Source: Syntrophales bacterium (GTDB taxonomy: Bacteria; Desulfobacterota; Syntrophia; Syntrophales; JADFWA01). Taken from it: a DNA stretch of 52,960 nt. A model generated the notes under the pieces. That model did no database searches. It was not told the DNA's origin and was given only the letters and a program-made list of their open reading frames with translations. The DNA lies in NCBI GenBank assembly GCA_030655775.1, contig JAUSPI010000220.1, forward strand, positions 1-52,960, in the 5' to 3' direction. Positions 37,659 through 44,393 of the stretch are shown one piece after another (positions within the stretch are counted from its first letter, which is position 1; every line of letters begins with the position of its first letter). Made by a program: the position numbers and the translations under genes.

Positions 37659-37897
37659 CTAATGCGGCAAAGCCGCAACCACAAAAGTGCCTAAAGTTTG
37701 AAGTGCCTAAAGTGAGCTAAAGTTAATGTACACGCCTTCGGCGCGGTCAAATTCGAAACAGGCTGCGCTGAAAGCGCATTTTTTAACTTTAGGCACTTTA
37801 GCTCACTTTACACTCTTAACTAAATCTTGCTGTTTGAACTGGTACCAATATCTGCGCAAAAAACGCAGTTGTTGAGAATAAAGACTCTAATGCGGCA
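37659..37897. repeat. 230-bp element, family 3, copy 2
   Basis: Matches 29513-29734 over its length; inner inverted repeats are the same. It is bounded by an 11-bp direct repeat ctaatgcggca (37659-37669 and 37887-37897), which looks like a target-site duplication. The right repeat includes the stop codon of the lipoprotein gene. A small palindrome aaatagg / ccctattt lies just outside near 37630. Confidence 0.82.
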
Positions 37898-38477
37898 TAT
37901 GATCGAGCATTTCTTTTACGAGGGCATCTGCCACATCGGGAAGATCGGGTTTTATAAACCAGTAATCTTTTGCCACATGATGGCCTGCCTTCCAGATTAT
38001 GTTTCCCGTTTCTGCCTGCACCAGCTTTAGTCCCAGGCCAACCTTGGCAACCTTGTCTTCACCTTCTACGGTGTAGTTCCAGTAATCTACATTAACAATA
38101 AGGAAAGCATCAATATCGTATGCTTCACCAATCTTCATGCTCAGATCAGAATCGGAAAAATTAACAGTTTTAAGTTTAGCTAAATAATCAACAACAGTTT
38201 TTCGCAGTTCATCATCTGATTGCATTCGGTTATTAATCATGTCAGGTGCCACAACATCAGAAAACCATTTTTTCTTGACCAGAACACCGGCTATGATTTG
38301 ATCAATAACACCCCTTGCTTCTTCAAAGGTTCCGACGTCAACTGGAATCACCCCTATTTTTTTCGGATGGAAATCCTTTGCATTCGGAGCAACCTGGGAA
38401 TATCGAATGCCTCCACAACCAAAGAGAACAATTACAATCAAGATTGAAAAATAAAGTACCCATGTTTTTCTAATCAT
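37887..38477 (-). CDS. Putative periplasmic lipoprotein of unknown function
   Basis: 196 residues. A signal peptide ends in a lipobox (VLFGC, Cys at about 21). The mature protein begins with HPKKIGVIPVDVGTFEEA and has alternating strands and helices (DIDAFLIVNVDYWNYTVEG, VKVGLGLKLVQAETGNIIWKA), a layout shared by several CsgG- and DUF799-like lipoproteins. I do not assign a family. The last three residues and stop fall in the element family 3 direct repeat. Separate transcript from ispH is possible since the gap is 54 bp with decayed 7-bp words. Confidence 0.75.
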   Translation of the reverse strand: MIRKTWVLYFSILIVIVLFGCGGIRYSQVAPNAKDFHPKKIGVIPVDVGTFEEARGVIDQIIAGVLVKKKWFSDVVAPDMINNRMQSDDELRKTVVDYLAKLKTVNFSDSDLSMKIGEAYDIDAFLIVNVDYWNYTVEGEDKVAKVGLGLKLVQAETGNIIWKAGHHVAKDYWFIKPDLPDVADALVKEMLDHMPH

Positions 38478-38531: not shown

Positions 38532-40256
38532 TTACACCAAAATTAACCATAAAAAAGTACTCAAACCGGCGATTATGTAGTTTGTCTCCAGGAGACCTTC
38601 CAGAACAACACCTGAAAACGTCGATCTTCTATCACAAAGTTTGAAACAAATCCACATATAAAATACACAGGCCAGGAGGGCAAAACTCAAAGAGGAAGTC
38701 CATCCTGCGGGGTTTGCAATTATAAGGATTGCGGCCGTAATACCCGATATTCCCTTTAAAAGCTTTTGTGTGTTTTTCTCTCCTATTACGACAGGAATAG
38801 TCTCTCTCCCGATCAGCCTGTCACTCTGAATGTCGATCGTGTCGGACAGGGCCGATCTGACGAAGACCACGGCAAAGGTGAATAGAAAAGCCAATGTCAT
38901 TGCCGGGGTTATGCTTATGCTTATTTCTAACTGTGGAAACACCGCTACTACGATCGCCCATGCCGTGGCCACAGAAACATTTTTGGATCCTGGGAGGTCT
39001 CTCAATCTCCTGAAACGCCAGTTTCGCGGAAATATCTTAGCGTTGTAAAGGACTCCAAAGCAGGAAATCGAAAGCAGAACCAGAAATGGGGCCAAACCGG
39101 CAATGAAGGAGAGAGTCAGGGCTGTAAGCAGGGAGGCAATGGCAATGGTAACGTATACCTTATCATGCTTCAGATAGGAATCTTCTCTGAATGAGCTTAC
39201 TATACCGCTGTATTTCCTGTCTGTGAATCTATTTACTGCATGCATCGAATATACATAAAAGGATGCTATCAATATATTCAAGATATTAACATTTAATCCC
39301 TGAAGGAGAATGCTCGCCAGAGACAGACATCCGGCGCCCACGGCGGAATAGATATCCGTTATAACGGCGAATATCCAGAATTTCAGCAGCCTGCTTGCTT
39401 TCCCCTTTTTCTTCTCTTCCTGAAAACTTGTAATGTAATCGACAACCTTTTCGATTGTCCAGTTTGGTGTAGATGCCCCGGCAGAAATACCGATTTCATT
39501 GTACCGGTCTATGTTTATATTCTTGAGCTCATCTGCCGTTTCAATATGAAATGTGGGTGTCCCCTGCAGTTCCGACATAGTAGCCAGTCTCTTGGTATTA
39601 GCGCTGTTCTTTCCCCCCACAACAAACATAGCATCCATTTTGGCGGACAATTCCTTAACCTCGGCCTGTCTCTTTTCAGTGGAATCGCATATGGTATCAA
39701 AGACCGTAACCTGTGGAAATCGTTGTCTAATCCTGTCAATTATATCCCCGTATTCCTTCGTGCTCTGAGTTGTCTGAGCGACAACGCAGATCTTCTCAAG
39801 CTCGGGGAGGGCATCAACCTCATCCCTGTTTTCTATTACGATTCCCTTTCCGTCAGAGTACCCGAGCAGACCGTCGACTTCGGGATGTCCATTATCCCCC
39901 ACAATCAGGACAGCATAACCCAGGGATGCATGTTTTTTGATTATGGCCTGCACACGCGCTACCTTTGGGCAGGTGACATCGACTATCTTTACATTCTTTT
40001 CTTTAATCTTTTTTCTTTCGAGGGGCGATATCCCGTGAGCCCTGATTATGATTGTTCCTTCTTCGATTTCATCGATATTATCTACCGGGAGTATTCCCCT
40101 CTTTTTAAGGATTTCAACAGTCTGTGGATTATGTATGAGGGGGCCGTAAGTATATATCTTTCCGGTATTCCTGTTCTGGGCAACGTCGAGGACCATATCG
40201 ACCGCCCTTCTCACGCCCATACAAAATCCTGCTGTCCTGGCTATTTTGATTCCCAT
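38532..40256 (-). CDS. ispH: IspH (HMBPP reductase) fused to a UbiA-type membrane prenyltransferase domain
   Basis: 574 residues from ATG 40256 (MGIKIARTAGFC). Residues 1-285 are a complete IspH: cluster cysteines Cys12, Cys96 and Cys190, His42, His74 and His124, and Glu126 (GHPEV), which reduces HMBPP to IPP and DMAPP with a [4Fe-4S] cluster. Residues about 290-574 are hydrophobic with about eight membrane helices and resemble UbiA prenyltransferases: HAVNRFTDRKYSG in the place of the first Asp motif and SDTIDIQSDRLIGRETIPVVIG as a good second Asp motif. The first motif is degenerate (N-R-x-x-D). The two halves have no stop or frameshift between them. Last gene of the xseA-ispH operon. Confidence 0.88.
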   Translation of the reverse strand: MGIKIARTAGFCMGVRRAVDMVLDVAQNRNTGKIYTYGPLIHNPQTVEILKKRGILPVDNIDEIEEGTIIIRAHGISPLERKKIKEKNVKIVDVTCPKVARVQAIIKKHASLGYAVLIVGDNGHPEVDGLLGYSDGKGIVIENRDEVDALPELEKICVVAQTTQSTKEYGDIIDRIRQRFPQVTVFDTICDSTEKRQAEVKELSAKMDAMFVVGGKNSANTKRLATMSELQGTPTFHIETADELKNINIDRYNEIGISAGASTPNWTIEKVVDYITSFQEEKKKGKASRLLKFWIFAVITDIYSAVGAGCLSLASILLQGLNVNILNILIASFYVYSMHAVNRFTDRKYSGIVSSFREDSYLKHDKVYVTIAIASLLTALTLSFIAGLAPFLVLLSISCFGVLYNAKIFPRNWRFRRLRDLPGSKNVSVATAWAIVVAVFPQLEISISITPAMTLAFLFTFAVVFVRSALSDTIDIQSDRLIGRETIPVVIGEKNTQKLLKGISGITAAILIIANPAGWTSSLSFALLACVFYMWICFKLCDRRSTFSGVVLEGLLETNYIIAGLSTFLWLILV

Positions 40257-40330: not shown

Positions 40331-41059
40331 CTATTTTTTTACATATATAAAAAATTCTTTATTACCAGCAGGCCCTAAAAGGGGAGAATCACATGTTCCC
40401 AGTACTTCGAGCCCCAATTCCCTGCAAAACTCCTCAATTTCATCAACAACCCTTCTATGTATATCGGGGTCTTTTACCACACCCTTTTTCCCTACCTCTT
40501 CCCTTCCTGCCTCAAATTGTGGCTTGATGAGGGCAAGAATAAACGCATCTTTCTTTATAAGCCTGACCGTGGCTGGAATAACCAACTTGAGGGAAATAAA
40601 GGAGGCATCTATGGTGGCTATATCTATCTCGTCGTCTATCCCGCTACCGGAAAAATAGCGTATATTTGTCTTTTCAAAGACAACTACCCTGTTATCATTT
40701 CTCAGCTTCCAGGCAAGCTGGCCGTAACCTACATCGACTGCATATACCTTTCTTGCCCCTTCCTGAAGCAGGCAGTCTGTAAAACCGCCTGTTGAGGCTC
40801 CGATATCGAGGGCTGCAAAACCTGCTACATCAATGCCGAACTCGGTTAGCGCTCCCTTGAGTTTCAAGCCTCCCCTGCTGACGTAAGGGTTATCCTCTCC
40901 CTTTATCCTTATCTTGGCATCTCTGGGAACGAGGGTGCCCGCTTTGTCAATCCTGTGTTCCCCGACGATGACGGCACCGGACAGGATAAGCGCCTTCGCC
41001 CTTTCACGCGTCGGGGAGATATCTCTCTCAACCAGAAGTCTGTCTAATCTTATCTTCAA
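40331..41059 (-). CDS. tlyA: TlyA-family 2'-O-ribose rRNA methyltransferase
   Basis: 242 residues. An S4 RNA-binding domain (MKIRLDRLLVERDISPTRERAKALI) leads a FtsJ-type methyltransferase: SAM loop ALDIGASTGGFTDCLLQ, DASFISL and ALIKPQFE, with K-D-K-E residues at usual places. TlyA proteins methylate 16S and 23S rRNA cytidines; the haemolysin label is historical. Position after dxs is a conserved arrangement. Confidence 0.93.
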   Translation of the reverse strand: MKIRLDRLLVERDISPTRERAKALILSGAVIVGEHRIDKAGTLVPRDAKIRIKGEDNPYVSRGGLKLKGALTEFGIDVAGFAALDIGASTGGFTDCLLQEGARKVYAVDVGYGQLAWKLRNDNRVVVFEKTNIRYFSGSGIDDEIDIATIDASFISLKLVIPATVRLIKKDAFILALIKPQFEAGREEVGKKGVVKDPDIHRRVVDEIEEFCRELGLEVLGTCDSPLLGPAGNKEFFIYVKK

Positions 41060-41296: not shown

Positions 41297-43174
41297 TCAT
41301 TTACCCATCATCTTACGGACAGTGTTCGCAATACCGTCCTCGTCAATACCGTACATGCTTCTCAATTCTGTCTGAGTTGCGTGTTCCACAAACTCATCCT
41401 TGATTCCAAGTCTTTTTACGGTAACATCATATATCCCCGCTTTTTCAAACAGCTCAAGGACAGCGCTCCCGAAGCCCCCCATCAAGACATTTTCCTCAAC
41501 GGTAATGACCTTCTTTATAGATTTAGCAACATCGCACAAAAGTTCTTCGTCAAGGGGCTTTACAAAGCGGCTATTGATGACCATTGCACTTATCCCTTCG
41601 TCTTTTAGATTTTCAGCGGCGGCAACGGCAGAACATACAGTAGACCCTATAGCGACGATTGCGATGTCGCTTCCATCAAGAATAACTTCACCCTTTCCGA
41701 TCTCAAGAGACCTTGGTGTGTCGTCAATAGAAACACCGACCCCCCTTCCCCGGGGATATCTCACCGATGCTGGACATCCACACTCAACGGCGGTTTTAAG
41801 CATGTGCTGGAATTCATTTTCATCTTTTGGGGCCATAACAACAATATTGGGAATTGATCTCAGGTAGGAATAATCGAACAGACCGTGATGAGTGGCACCA
41901 TCTTTTCCGACGAATCCCCCCCGATCGAGAGCAAGAACCACCGGTAGTTTCTGGGCACAGATATCATGGAGTACCTGGTCATATGCCCTCTGCATGAAGG
42001 TCGAATAGATTGTTACCACCGGTATAAACCCTTCAGTGGCGAGACCGGCAGCAAATGTAGCCCCGTGCTGTTCCGCTATACCGACGTCATAAAACCTGCC
42101 AGGCATCTCTTCTGCAAATTGCTCAAGTCCCGTCCCGTGAGTCATAGCAGCCGTTATTGCGACGATCCTTGAATCTTCACGGGCCAGTTTCACCATCGTT
42201 TTCCCGAACATTTCCGTATAAGACGGGTCAGAATTACTGTCTACGAGGTTTGTGCCGGTAGTTATGTCGAAAGGACCGATACCATGAAATCTCGATGGTT
42301 CCTCCTCTGCGAACTTGTATCCCTTTCCTTTTTTAGTGATAACGTGAACCAGGACAGGCCTGTTGAGCTTCTTTACGTTTTCCAGGTTTTTTATCAGGTG
42401 ATCCAGTCTGTGCCCTTCAAGCGGGCCTACGTACTGGAAACCAAGTTCTTCAAAGATGACACCCGGGACGAAAAATGCTTTCAGCGATTCTTCTGCCTGT
42501 CTTGTAAACTTCAGCATCTTGTCCCCGATACCCGGTATTGTTTTTATAAAGTTCTTAATCTCAGATCTCATTTTCGTGATACGTTGCCCCGTCATGAGAC
42601 GGTTCAAATAGGACGACATGGCACCCACATTGGGAGAAATGGACATTTCGTTGTCATTGAGTATAATTAAAAGATCCTTATTTCTGCCGCCTGTCCAGTT
42701 CAATCCCTCAAAGGCCATTCCGGCAGTCATCGAACCATCACCGATTACGGCAATCACCTTGAAGCCCTCGTTTTTGAGACATCTGGCCTCGGCGATACCG
42801 GCGGCGGCGGATATCGATGTACTGCTGTGACCGACATTGAAGACGTCGTAGTCGCTCTCTTCCCTCCTGGGAAAACCGCTCAACCCCCCTTTCTGACGGA
42901 GGGTGTGAAACCGGTCTTTCCTGCCGGTAATTATCTTATGGGCATAGGACTGGTGCCCGACATCCCATATAAGCTTATCCTCAGGGGTGTCAAAGACATA
43001 GTGGATTGCAAGTGTCAGTTCCACAACACCGAGAGACGAGGCTAAGTGTCCGCCGCTTTTGGAGACTGTTTCAATTATTTTTCCCCTGATTTCCCCTGCC
43101 AGGACGTTTAATTCGGCAAATCCAAGCTTTTTGATGTCGTGGGGGAAATCAATTTTTTCTAATATGCTGTCCAT
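41297..43174 (-). CDS. dxs: 1-deoxy-D-xylulose-5-phosphate synthase
   Basis: 625 residues. The TPP motif GDGSMTAGMAFEGLNWTGG..NDN and the N-terminal HQSYAHKIITGR are complete, and the pyrimidine and C-terminal domains follow (GIAEQHGATFAAGLA). It makes DXP from pyruvate and glyceraldehyde 3-phosphate, the first step of the MEP pathway. It is downstream of ispA and upstream of tlyA in one operon. Confidence 0.96.
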   Translation of the reverse strand: MDSILEKIDFPHDIKKLGFAELNVLAGEIRGKIIETVSKSGGHLASSLGVVELTLAIHYVFDTPEDKLIWDVGHQSYAHKIITGRKDRFHTLRQKGGLSGFPRREESDYDVFNVGHSSTSISAAAGIAEARCLKNEGFKVIAVIGDGSMTAGMAFEGLNWTGGRNKDLLIILNDNEMSISPNVGAMSSYLNRLMTGQRITKMRSEIKNFIKTIPGIGDKMLKFTRQAEESLKAFFVPGVIFEELGFQYVGPLEGHRLDHLIKNLENVKKLNRPVLVHVITKKGKGYKFAEEEPSRFHGIGPFDITTGTNLVDSNSDPSYTEMFGKTMVKLAREDSRIVAITAAMTHGTGLEQFAEEMPGRFYDVGIAEQHGATFAAGLATEGFIPVVTIYSTFMQRAYDQVLHDICAQKLPVVLALDRGGFVGKDGATHHGLFDYSYLRSIPNIVVMAPKDENEFQHMLKTAVECGCPASVRYPRGRGVGVSIDDTPRSLEIGKGEVILDGSDIAIVAIGSTVCSAVAAAENLKDEGISAMVINSRFVKPLDEELLCDVAKSIKKVITVEENVLMGGFGSAVLELFEKAGIYDVTVKRLGIKDEFVEHATQTELRSMYGIDEDGIANTVRKMMGK

Positions 43175-43258: not shown

Positions 43259-44167
43259 TCACGATCTTCTTTCAATTATATATTTTGCTATCATTCTCAG
43301 GGGTTCTGCCCTGCTGTCGAATTGTGCGATATCTGACAGGGCGTTATCCACAAGTTCACGGGCCTTTTTCCTCGATGCTTCAAGACCGAAAAGGGCAGGA
43401 AACGTAACCTTGCCGCGCGACCGGTCACTTCCTATATCCTTGCCAAGTGTTTCCTGATCCCCCTCAACGTCAAGAATATCGTCCGCTATCTGAAAGGCAA
43501 GTCCGATGTTCCTGCCGTAATCTGAAAGGGCGTCAATCTCATTCTTGCCGGCGCCGGATAAGACGGCGCCTGCCCTGACAGAGGTGGTAATCATCGCCCC
43601 CGTCTTATGCGTATGGATGTAATCGAGGGTTTCTTCGCCAACCTCCTTTCCCTCCGATTGTACATCAACAACCTGCCCGCCGACCATACCGAGGAACCCT
43701 GCGGCTTCCGAGATATCGCTGATTACGGCGAGGAGTCTGTCGGGAGGGGTTTCGCCGACAAACTCTCTTTTTGACATCAGACGGAAGGCCTCCGTGAGGA
43801 GGGCGTCACCGGCCAGAATGGCGATATCTTCGCCGAATACCTTGTGGTTTGTGGGCTTTCCCCTCCTGTAATCGTCGTCATCAATGACGGGGAGATCATC
43901 GTGGATCAGGGAGTAGGTGTGAATCAGCTCTAACGCACAGGCCACAGGAAGCACTGTTTCAATGTTTCCCCCAACGGCTTCCGCGGAGGCCATGCACAAG
44001 ATCGGCCGTAGCCTTTTTCCTCCGGCAAATACGCTGTACCTTACAGATTTAAAAATGGTGGACGGAAAAGTATCCTCTCCGGGAAGGTACCTGTCAAGGG
44101 CTTCATCGACGATATTTTTTCTCGCCTTCAGATAGTCATCCAGGGATATTTTCTTTTCAGGGGTCAC
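43259..44167 (-). CDS. ispA: Polyprenyl (farnesyl/geranyl-type) diphosphate synthase
   Basis: 302 residues from a GTG start at 44167, chosen because GGGGGAGG lies 6 bases before it (an ATG at 44212 would lengthen it into xseB). First Asp-rich motif [17 protein letters not shown], second motif [13 protein letters not shown], and GGKRLRPIL. It condenses IPP with allylic diphosphates. Chain length cannot be set from sequence alone; the two residues before the first motif (LI) are small, which favours FPP or GGPP. Overlaps xseB by 11 bases. Confidence 0.93.
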
Positions 44168-44393
44168 TTTTATCCTCCCCCTTGAAGGGCTGAATATCCA
44201 ATCCCTCTTCATTCTTGAGAAGGACTTCTATCCGCCTCTCCGCTTCATCGAGCTTTTTGGCGCAGAACCGTGAGAGTCTGATCCCTTCTTCAAAAGATTT
44301 GAGGGATTCCTCCAGGGTCAGGTCCCCGCTTTCCATCTCCCTTACAGTGTCTTCTAACTTTTTCAATGCCTCTTCAAATTTTTCTTCTGCCAT
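44157..44393 (-). CDS. xseB: Exodeoxyribonuclease VII small subunit
   Basis: 78 residues, normal length. The family motif is complete: [32 protein letters not shown], ending with coiled-coil-like ALRRIEVLL. It regulates the XseA catalytic subunit. It starts 6 bases after the xseA stop and overlaps ispA. Confidence 0.95.

Follow-up and report, generated by a model that had tools for sequence, protein, structure and literature searches.

IspH fused to a UbiA-fold membrane domain in a Syntrophales bacterium and its relatives in the phylum Desulfobacterota

The fused gene and its domains

In the window, the whole stretch of 52,960 nucleotides that was analysed, one uninterrupted reading frame encodes an IspH (LytB) protein followed by a UbiA-like membrane domain (Table 1). 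This is the arrangement given in the preliminary description made from the sequence; the strand is minus, and an ORF reading found the plus strand of the same stretch closed by many stops. The same start methionine is found in the homologues.

Table 1. Features of the fused gene, its active-site motifs and its neighbours in the window.
Feature	Position	Strand	Remarks
IspH-UbiA fusion ORF	38532..40256	-	574 aa in one frame; ATG at 40256, stop at 38532-38534
IspH (LytB) domain, residues 1-283	39408..40256	-	complete set of [4Fe-4S] and substrate residues
UbiA-fold membrane domain, residues 284-574	38535..39407	-	nine predicted membrane helices; Pfam UbiA, AlphaFold2, Foldseek
Altered first Asp-rich motif HAVNRFTDRKYS, residues 339-350	39207..39242	-	retains His339, N342 and D346; Ser350 in place of the third Asp
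Tyr404, aligned with AfUbiA Tyr139	39045..39047	-	alignment to 4tq3
Second Asp-rich motif DTIDIQSD, residues 472-479	38820..38843	-	D479 invariant
tlyA, rRNA methyltransferase gene	40331..41059	-	immediately upstream of the fusion
dxs, first MEP-pathway enzyme	41297..43174	-	same strand as the fusion
ispA, farnesyl/geranylgeranyl diphosphate synthase-type	43259..44212	-	same strand as the fusion
Lipoprotein-like gene	37887..38477	-	directly downstream of the fusion; weak similarity to GNA1162 and LpoB

Pfam LYTB matched residues 3-275 of the fusion protein (E 2e-94), and in the NCBIfam scan TIGR00216 (ispH_lytB) scored 290 bits against a curated cut-off of 187.85. Together with the IspH fold found by Foldseek for the N-terminal half (3dnf, E 1.5e-21) and the presence of the cluster cysteines and substrate residues, these matches place the domain in the IspH family. 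The catalytic residues had been described as complete, and C12, C96, C190, H42, H74, H124, E126 and T163 proved invariant among 51 fused homologues. The C-terminal domain exceeded the Pfam gathering score for the UbiA superfamily (residues 312-538; 47.3 bits, cut-off 34.2, E 2e-12), and Pfam UbiA matched the C-domain in all 30 relatives tested at E 0.01 or better. Several UbiA-type prenyltransferase matches in the NCBIfam scan were all weak and partial. No S1 domain was found in the fusion protein by the Pfam and NCBIfam scans, and NF000907 covered its IspH part only, with 336 bits against a cut-off of 624; an identity as an IspH-RPS1 protein was rejected because S1 repeats are absent after IspH.

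An AlphaFold2 model based on the 51-sequence alignment had a mean pLDDT of 90.8 and a pTM of 0.86. In it the last IspH helix (265-282) is followed after three residues by another helix and then by nine membrane-length helices, and the two domains are predicted, as judged by this model and its pTM, to pack together. The Foldseek matches of the C-terminal half were 4tq3, 4od4 and 7bpu (E 4e-5 to 4e-4), comprising Archaeoglobus and Aeropyrum UbiA proteins and DGGGP synthase, and UBIAD1 of the HMGCR-UBIAD1 complex was also among the fold matches of the fusion. The domain has the eight or nine helices of the UbiA arrangement, and its two Asp motifs lie where helices 2 and 6 end. By analogy with the layout of AfUbiA, these helix ends and the IspH domain would both face the cytoplasm.

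Gene neighbourhood and genome context

IspA and Dxs had been assigned to the same operon as the fusion, and this assignment held. IspA, Dxs and TlyA are encoded upstream, and the Syntrophales loci examined all show, up to their contig ends, the colinear gene order XseA-IspA-Dxs-TlyA-fusion-lipoprotein-Tmk-HolB-YaaT-MetG. Of 80 order-level loci, 79 have the lipoprotein-like gene next to the fusion. Among 14 loci outside the order, the neighbourhood gave no hint of an acceptor, and the IspA-Dxs-TlyA-IspH order was shared by a single family, f38 (L069-L072, L167), of which one locus was examined; its IspH carries a strongly eroded UbiA-type domain.

The window genome contains a single IspH gene alongside Dxs and IspG, so this IspH must work, and on that ground we infer HMBPP reductase activity for it. 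MqnA/D-family genes are present as well, together with an MqnP-like UbiA protein encoded next to a UbiX-like and a UbiD-like ORF (the latter two named from sequence) and a separate MenA-like protein. With MqnP-like and MenA-like proteins encoded elsewhere, the fused domain was rejected, as unneeded, as the menaquinone prenyltransferase of the genome.

Residues of the UbiA-type active site

In AfUbiA and EcMenA the residues N68, D72, D198, D202 and Y139 are essential, mutation of N68 or D72 in AfUbiA abolishing function, and the first Asp-rich motif of UbiA prenyltransferases is NDXXDXXXD (PMC4106721). The window protein has equivalents of all five, namely N342, D346, D475, D479 and Y404. Both a DTIDIQSD motif and a motif of the NRFTD type had been noticed beforehand and are present, the latter within HAVNRFTDRKYS. 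The second motif has the canonical DXXXD as D475-D479, and the catalytic-site tyrosine Y404 is in place. The first departs from NDXXDXXXD: as NRFTDRKYS it keeps the Asn and one Asp and lacks the third Asp. The earlier characterisation of this motif as weak was therefore correct in part. N342 and D346 are kept in the window protein; the third Asp is absent (S350), and D346 is Asp in 14 of 78 order-level relatives and replaced in the other 64.

Like the window protein, 58 of 60 aligned proteins lacked the third Asp, which was present in two. H339, N342, Y404, W433, D472, D479, E485, T486 and G492 were invariant in the 78 order-level relatives. In the phylum-wide set of 60, Y404 was conserved in 58, and position 339 was His, likewise, in 58. 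The equivalent position was not His in the MqnP-like and MenA-like proteins of the window genome or in three stand-alone UbiA relatives, as aligned by eye. From these sequences the first Asp site looks altered rather than decayed in most lineages.

Relation to the published fusions

Rao et al. 2015 (Chem Sci, PMC4746011) reported 47 IspH-UbiA fusions as Rosetta-stone proteins, all of them from sulfate reducers and from genomes that also have a separate UbiA or MenA. The UbiA part, with two DXXXD motifs, was classed as PT_UbiA_5 and its function given as unknown; the full-length protein could not be expressed. The same paper proposed membrane localisation and local supply, the idea that the preliminary description also put forward. 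That description had taken the UbiA fusion to be uncharacterised, which is true of its function and not of its discovery. A literature search found no IspH-UbiA study after Rao et al. 2015, and one paper from 2025 merely cites it.

The window protein is an ordinary member of this published, functionally unexplained family. It shares with the fusions of Rao et al. the architecture, the domain order, the broad bacterial group and the occurrence of separate UbiA/MenA proteins elsewhere in the genome. In contrast to those fusions, all from sulfate reducers, it comes from a genome in which dsrA was not found, and its motif 1 lacks the DXXXD, as does that of nearly all 60 aligned proteins. New relative to Rao et al. 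are the wider distribution, a pattern that fits a single origin followed by loss and erosion, the altered motif 1 with its nearly invariant His, and the MqnP-like and MenA-like proteins of this genome.

Distribution in the phylum

Of 395 genomes from the phylum, about 140 encode full-length homologues with both domains in one open frame. Since these genomes are independent, a frameshift or misassembly was rejected as the origin of the fused frame. A scan of named genomes kept 80 loci (Syntrophaceae, Syntrophus, Smithella and related records), of which 78 were fused; the other two matches start at a contig end. The one locus that could speak for two adjacent genes merged by misassembly or a missed stop is that of a relative, L170 (G022:C37, 400-2400, minus strand), where the halves are separated by in-frame stops and the UbiA part is an open frame of 223 residues. 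It is either a recent split or a decaying gene, and for the window protein we consider such a merger practically excluded.

With a profile of the C-domain only, 119 of 297 genomes of the phylum matched, or 113 when six weak or partial matches were dropped (hand count), and nearly all matches sit in frames of IspH-plus-UbiA length. A C-terminally extended IspH frame was counted by hand in 61 of 130 IspH-bearing genomes. The long ORFs of f34 and G015 were rejected as further fusions, their extra length being N-terminal read-through in the IspH frame. In the order to which the window belongs, 54 of 60 genomes matched the C-domain profile and dsrA scored above its cut-off in 11 of 60; given these few dsrA genomes and the negative result in the window genome, the fusion does not mark sulfate reducers. 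It is much commoner than the 47 published sequences and is not confined to sulfate reducers.

Only four stand-alone relatives of this UbiA type were seen in the order (G431:C139, G030:C6 (L073), G411:C31 and G397:C2; 60-92 bits), and all four genomes also have dsrA, compared with 11 of 60 overall. One further genome carries two IspH proteins, one fused (C172) and one unfused that belongs to a different clade (L188, G135:C153).

Origin, loss and erosion

In an unrooted IspH-domain tree of 127 rows, which was also computed with one long branch left out, the fused and the eroded proteins all lie on one side of one branch. Five groups on the fused side have lost the UbiA domain. In four families, f35, f43, f86 and f38, most catalytic residues of the C-domain are lost and the profile match is weak or absent; the first three are nested among fused proteins and f38 lies at the base. 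The topology fits one fusion event, after which the domain was lost five times and eroded, with the fusion kept, about four times. A split ancestral arrangement was rejected: in about 50 unfused loci no stand-alone UbiA-like ORF was found next to the unfused IspH, except for the stop-split L170.

In f35 and f38 the eroded C-domains are still homologous to the intact ones, with HHalign probabilities of 99.4 (f35) and 98.7 (f38). The f35 protein is predicted to keep two packed domains and a multi-helix fold, in a model whose alignment included intact relatives and may be biased by them; its best membrane matches are still UbiA proteins, with weak E-values. Values of dN/dS for the C-domain were about 0.09-0.19 in most unsaturated pairs, most eroded pairs included, and 0.44 in the f86 pair. 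Having been obtained by simple counting, with several pairs saturated, they are indicative, and they point to purifying selection on the domain.

Possible roles of the fused protein

We give an even chance to the explanation that the fusion is an HMBPP reductase docked at the membrane, with a UbiA domain that in most lineages has kept its ability to bind prenyl diphosphate. The sole HMBPP reductase of the cell would then be built as an integral membrane protein; sequence and model show a complete IspH joined, with hardly any linker, to a UbiA-fold domain of nine helices. We infer this docking, and in the predicted arrangement the active site of IspH and the pocket for prenyl diphosphate would both lie on the cytoplasmic side. 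In most lineages, that of the window included, the UbiA domain probably binds prenyl diphosphate with Mg2+ through N342, Y404, D475 and D479, one metal site being apparently altered, with the family-specific His339 beside it. The role common to all would be to keep IspH attached to the membrane, the site at which IPP and DMAPP become long prenyl diphosphates that are then used. Retention of the fusion despite erosion argues for docking as the least that all lineages with the domain have in common. IspH can do without membrane attachment, as five lineages have lost the domain altogether. The conservation of pocket residues in most lineages exceeds the needs of a bare anchor and argues for a ligand. 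The preliminary description had left open an inactive domain, an altered one or a pure anchor, and each state finds support, in different lineages.

In the Rosetta-stone reading, put forward by Rao et al. 2015, the UbiA domain would be an active prenyltransferase to which the fusion channels prenyl diphosphate derived from IPP/DMAPP. The window protein may be able to prenylate an acceptor: it keeps equivalents of all five essential AfUbiA/EcMenA residues, an intact motif 2 and strongly conserved pocket residues, and its gene shares an operon with the isoprenoid genes dxs and ispA. We nevertheless regard this reading as doubtful. Apart from the missing third Asp of motif 1 and the frequent replacement of its second Asp within the order, direct channelling is not obvious, because IspH yields C5 units while UbiA enzymes usually take longer, IspA-type chains. 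Other UbiA proteins of the genome already account for menaquinone prenylation. Several eroded lineages have lost the residues and kept the domain, so prenyl transfer is no general requirement. An unlikely alternative to docking with retained binding is a sensor that binds prenyl diphosphate or prenyl quinone and tunes IspH, as UBIAD1 does with HMG-CoA reductase. The human protein binds HMG-CoA reductase and regulates it according to geranylgeranyl diphosphate (PMC4374513, PMC8641950), and this documented precedent, the survival of binding residues beyond the full catalytic set, the rigid two-domain model and the fold match to UBIAD1 all favour a sensor; the control of HMGCR, however, acts via eukaryotic degradation, which has no counterpart here. 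In a specific version, to which we attach little probability, a pseudo-prenyltransferase would serve as a prenyl-diphosphate-sensing dock via His339, Asn342, Tyr404 and Asp479, coupling the prenyl status of the membrane to the last MEP step, and would later have become a plain anchor in several lineages. If true, the fusion would be the bacterial equivalent, in one polypeptide, of UBIAD1 with HMG-CoA reductase.

As an enzyme, IspH is both essential and targeted by drug development. The deeply conserved IspH-UbiA form occurs in about half of those genomes sampled from the phylum that have an IspH, and its membrane half has been without an assigned role since 2015. The conservation pattern supplies point mutants and natural variants with which anchor, enzyme and sensor can be separated.

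Compared with UbiA prenyltransferases (AfUbiA 4tq3, ApUbiA 4od4, EcMenA, MqnP), the domain has in common the nine-helix fold, the second Asp motif, the Asn and first essential Asp of motif 1 and the conserved Tyr. It differs in lacking the third Asp, in the His three residues before the motif Asn, and in being fused to IspH and additional to the MqnP-like and MenA-like proteins. In the UBIAD1-HMG-CoA reductase complex (8djk), as here, a UbiA-fold protein is physically coupled to an isoprenoid reductase, but the partners are separate eukaryotic proteins of the mevalonate pathway, with control by degradation. The IspH-RPS1 fusions (Rao et al. 2015) are alike in being a large IspH with a C-terminal partner; that partner, ribosomal protein S1, is soluble, whereas the UbiA half described here is a membrane domain.
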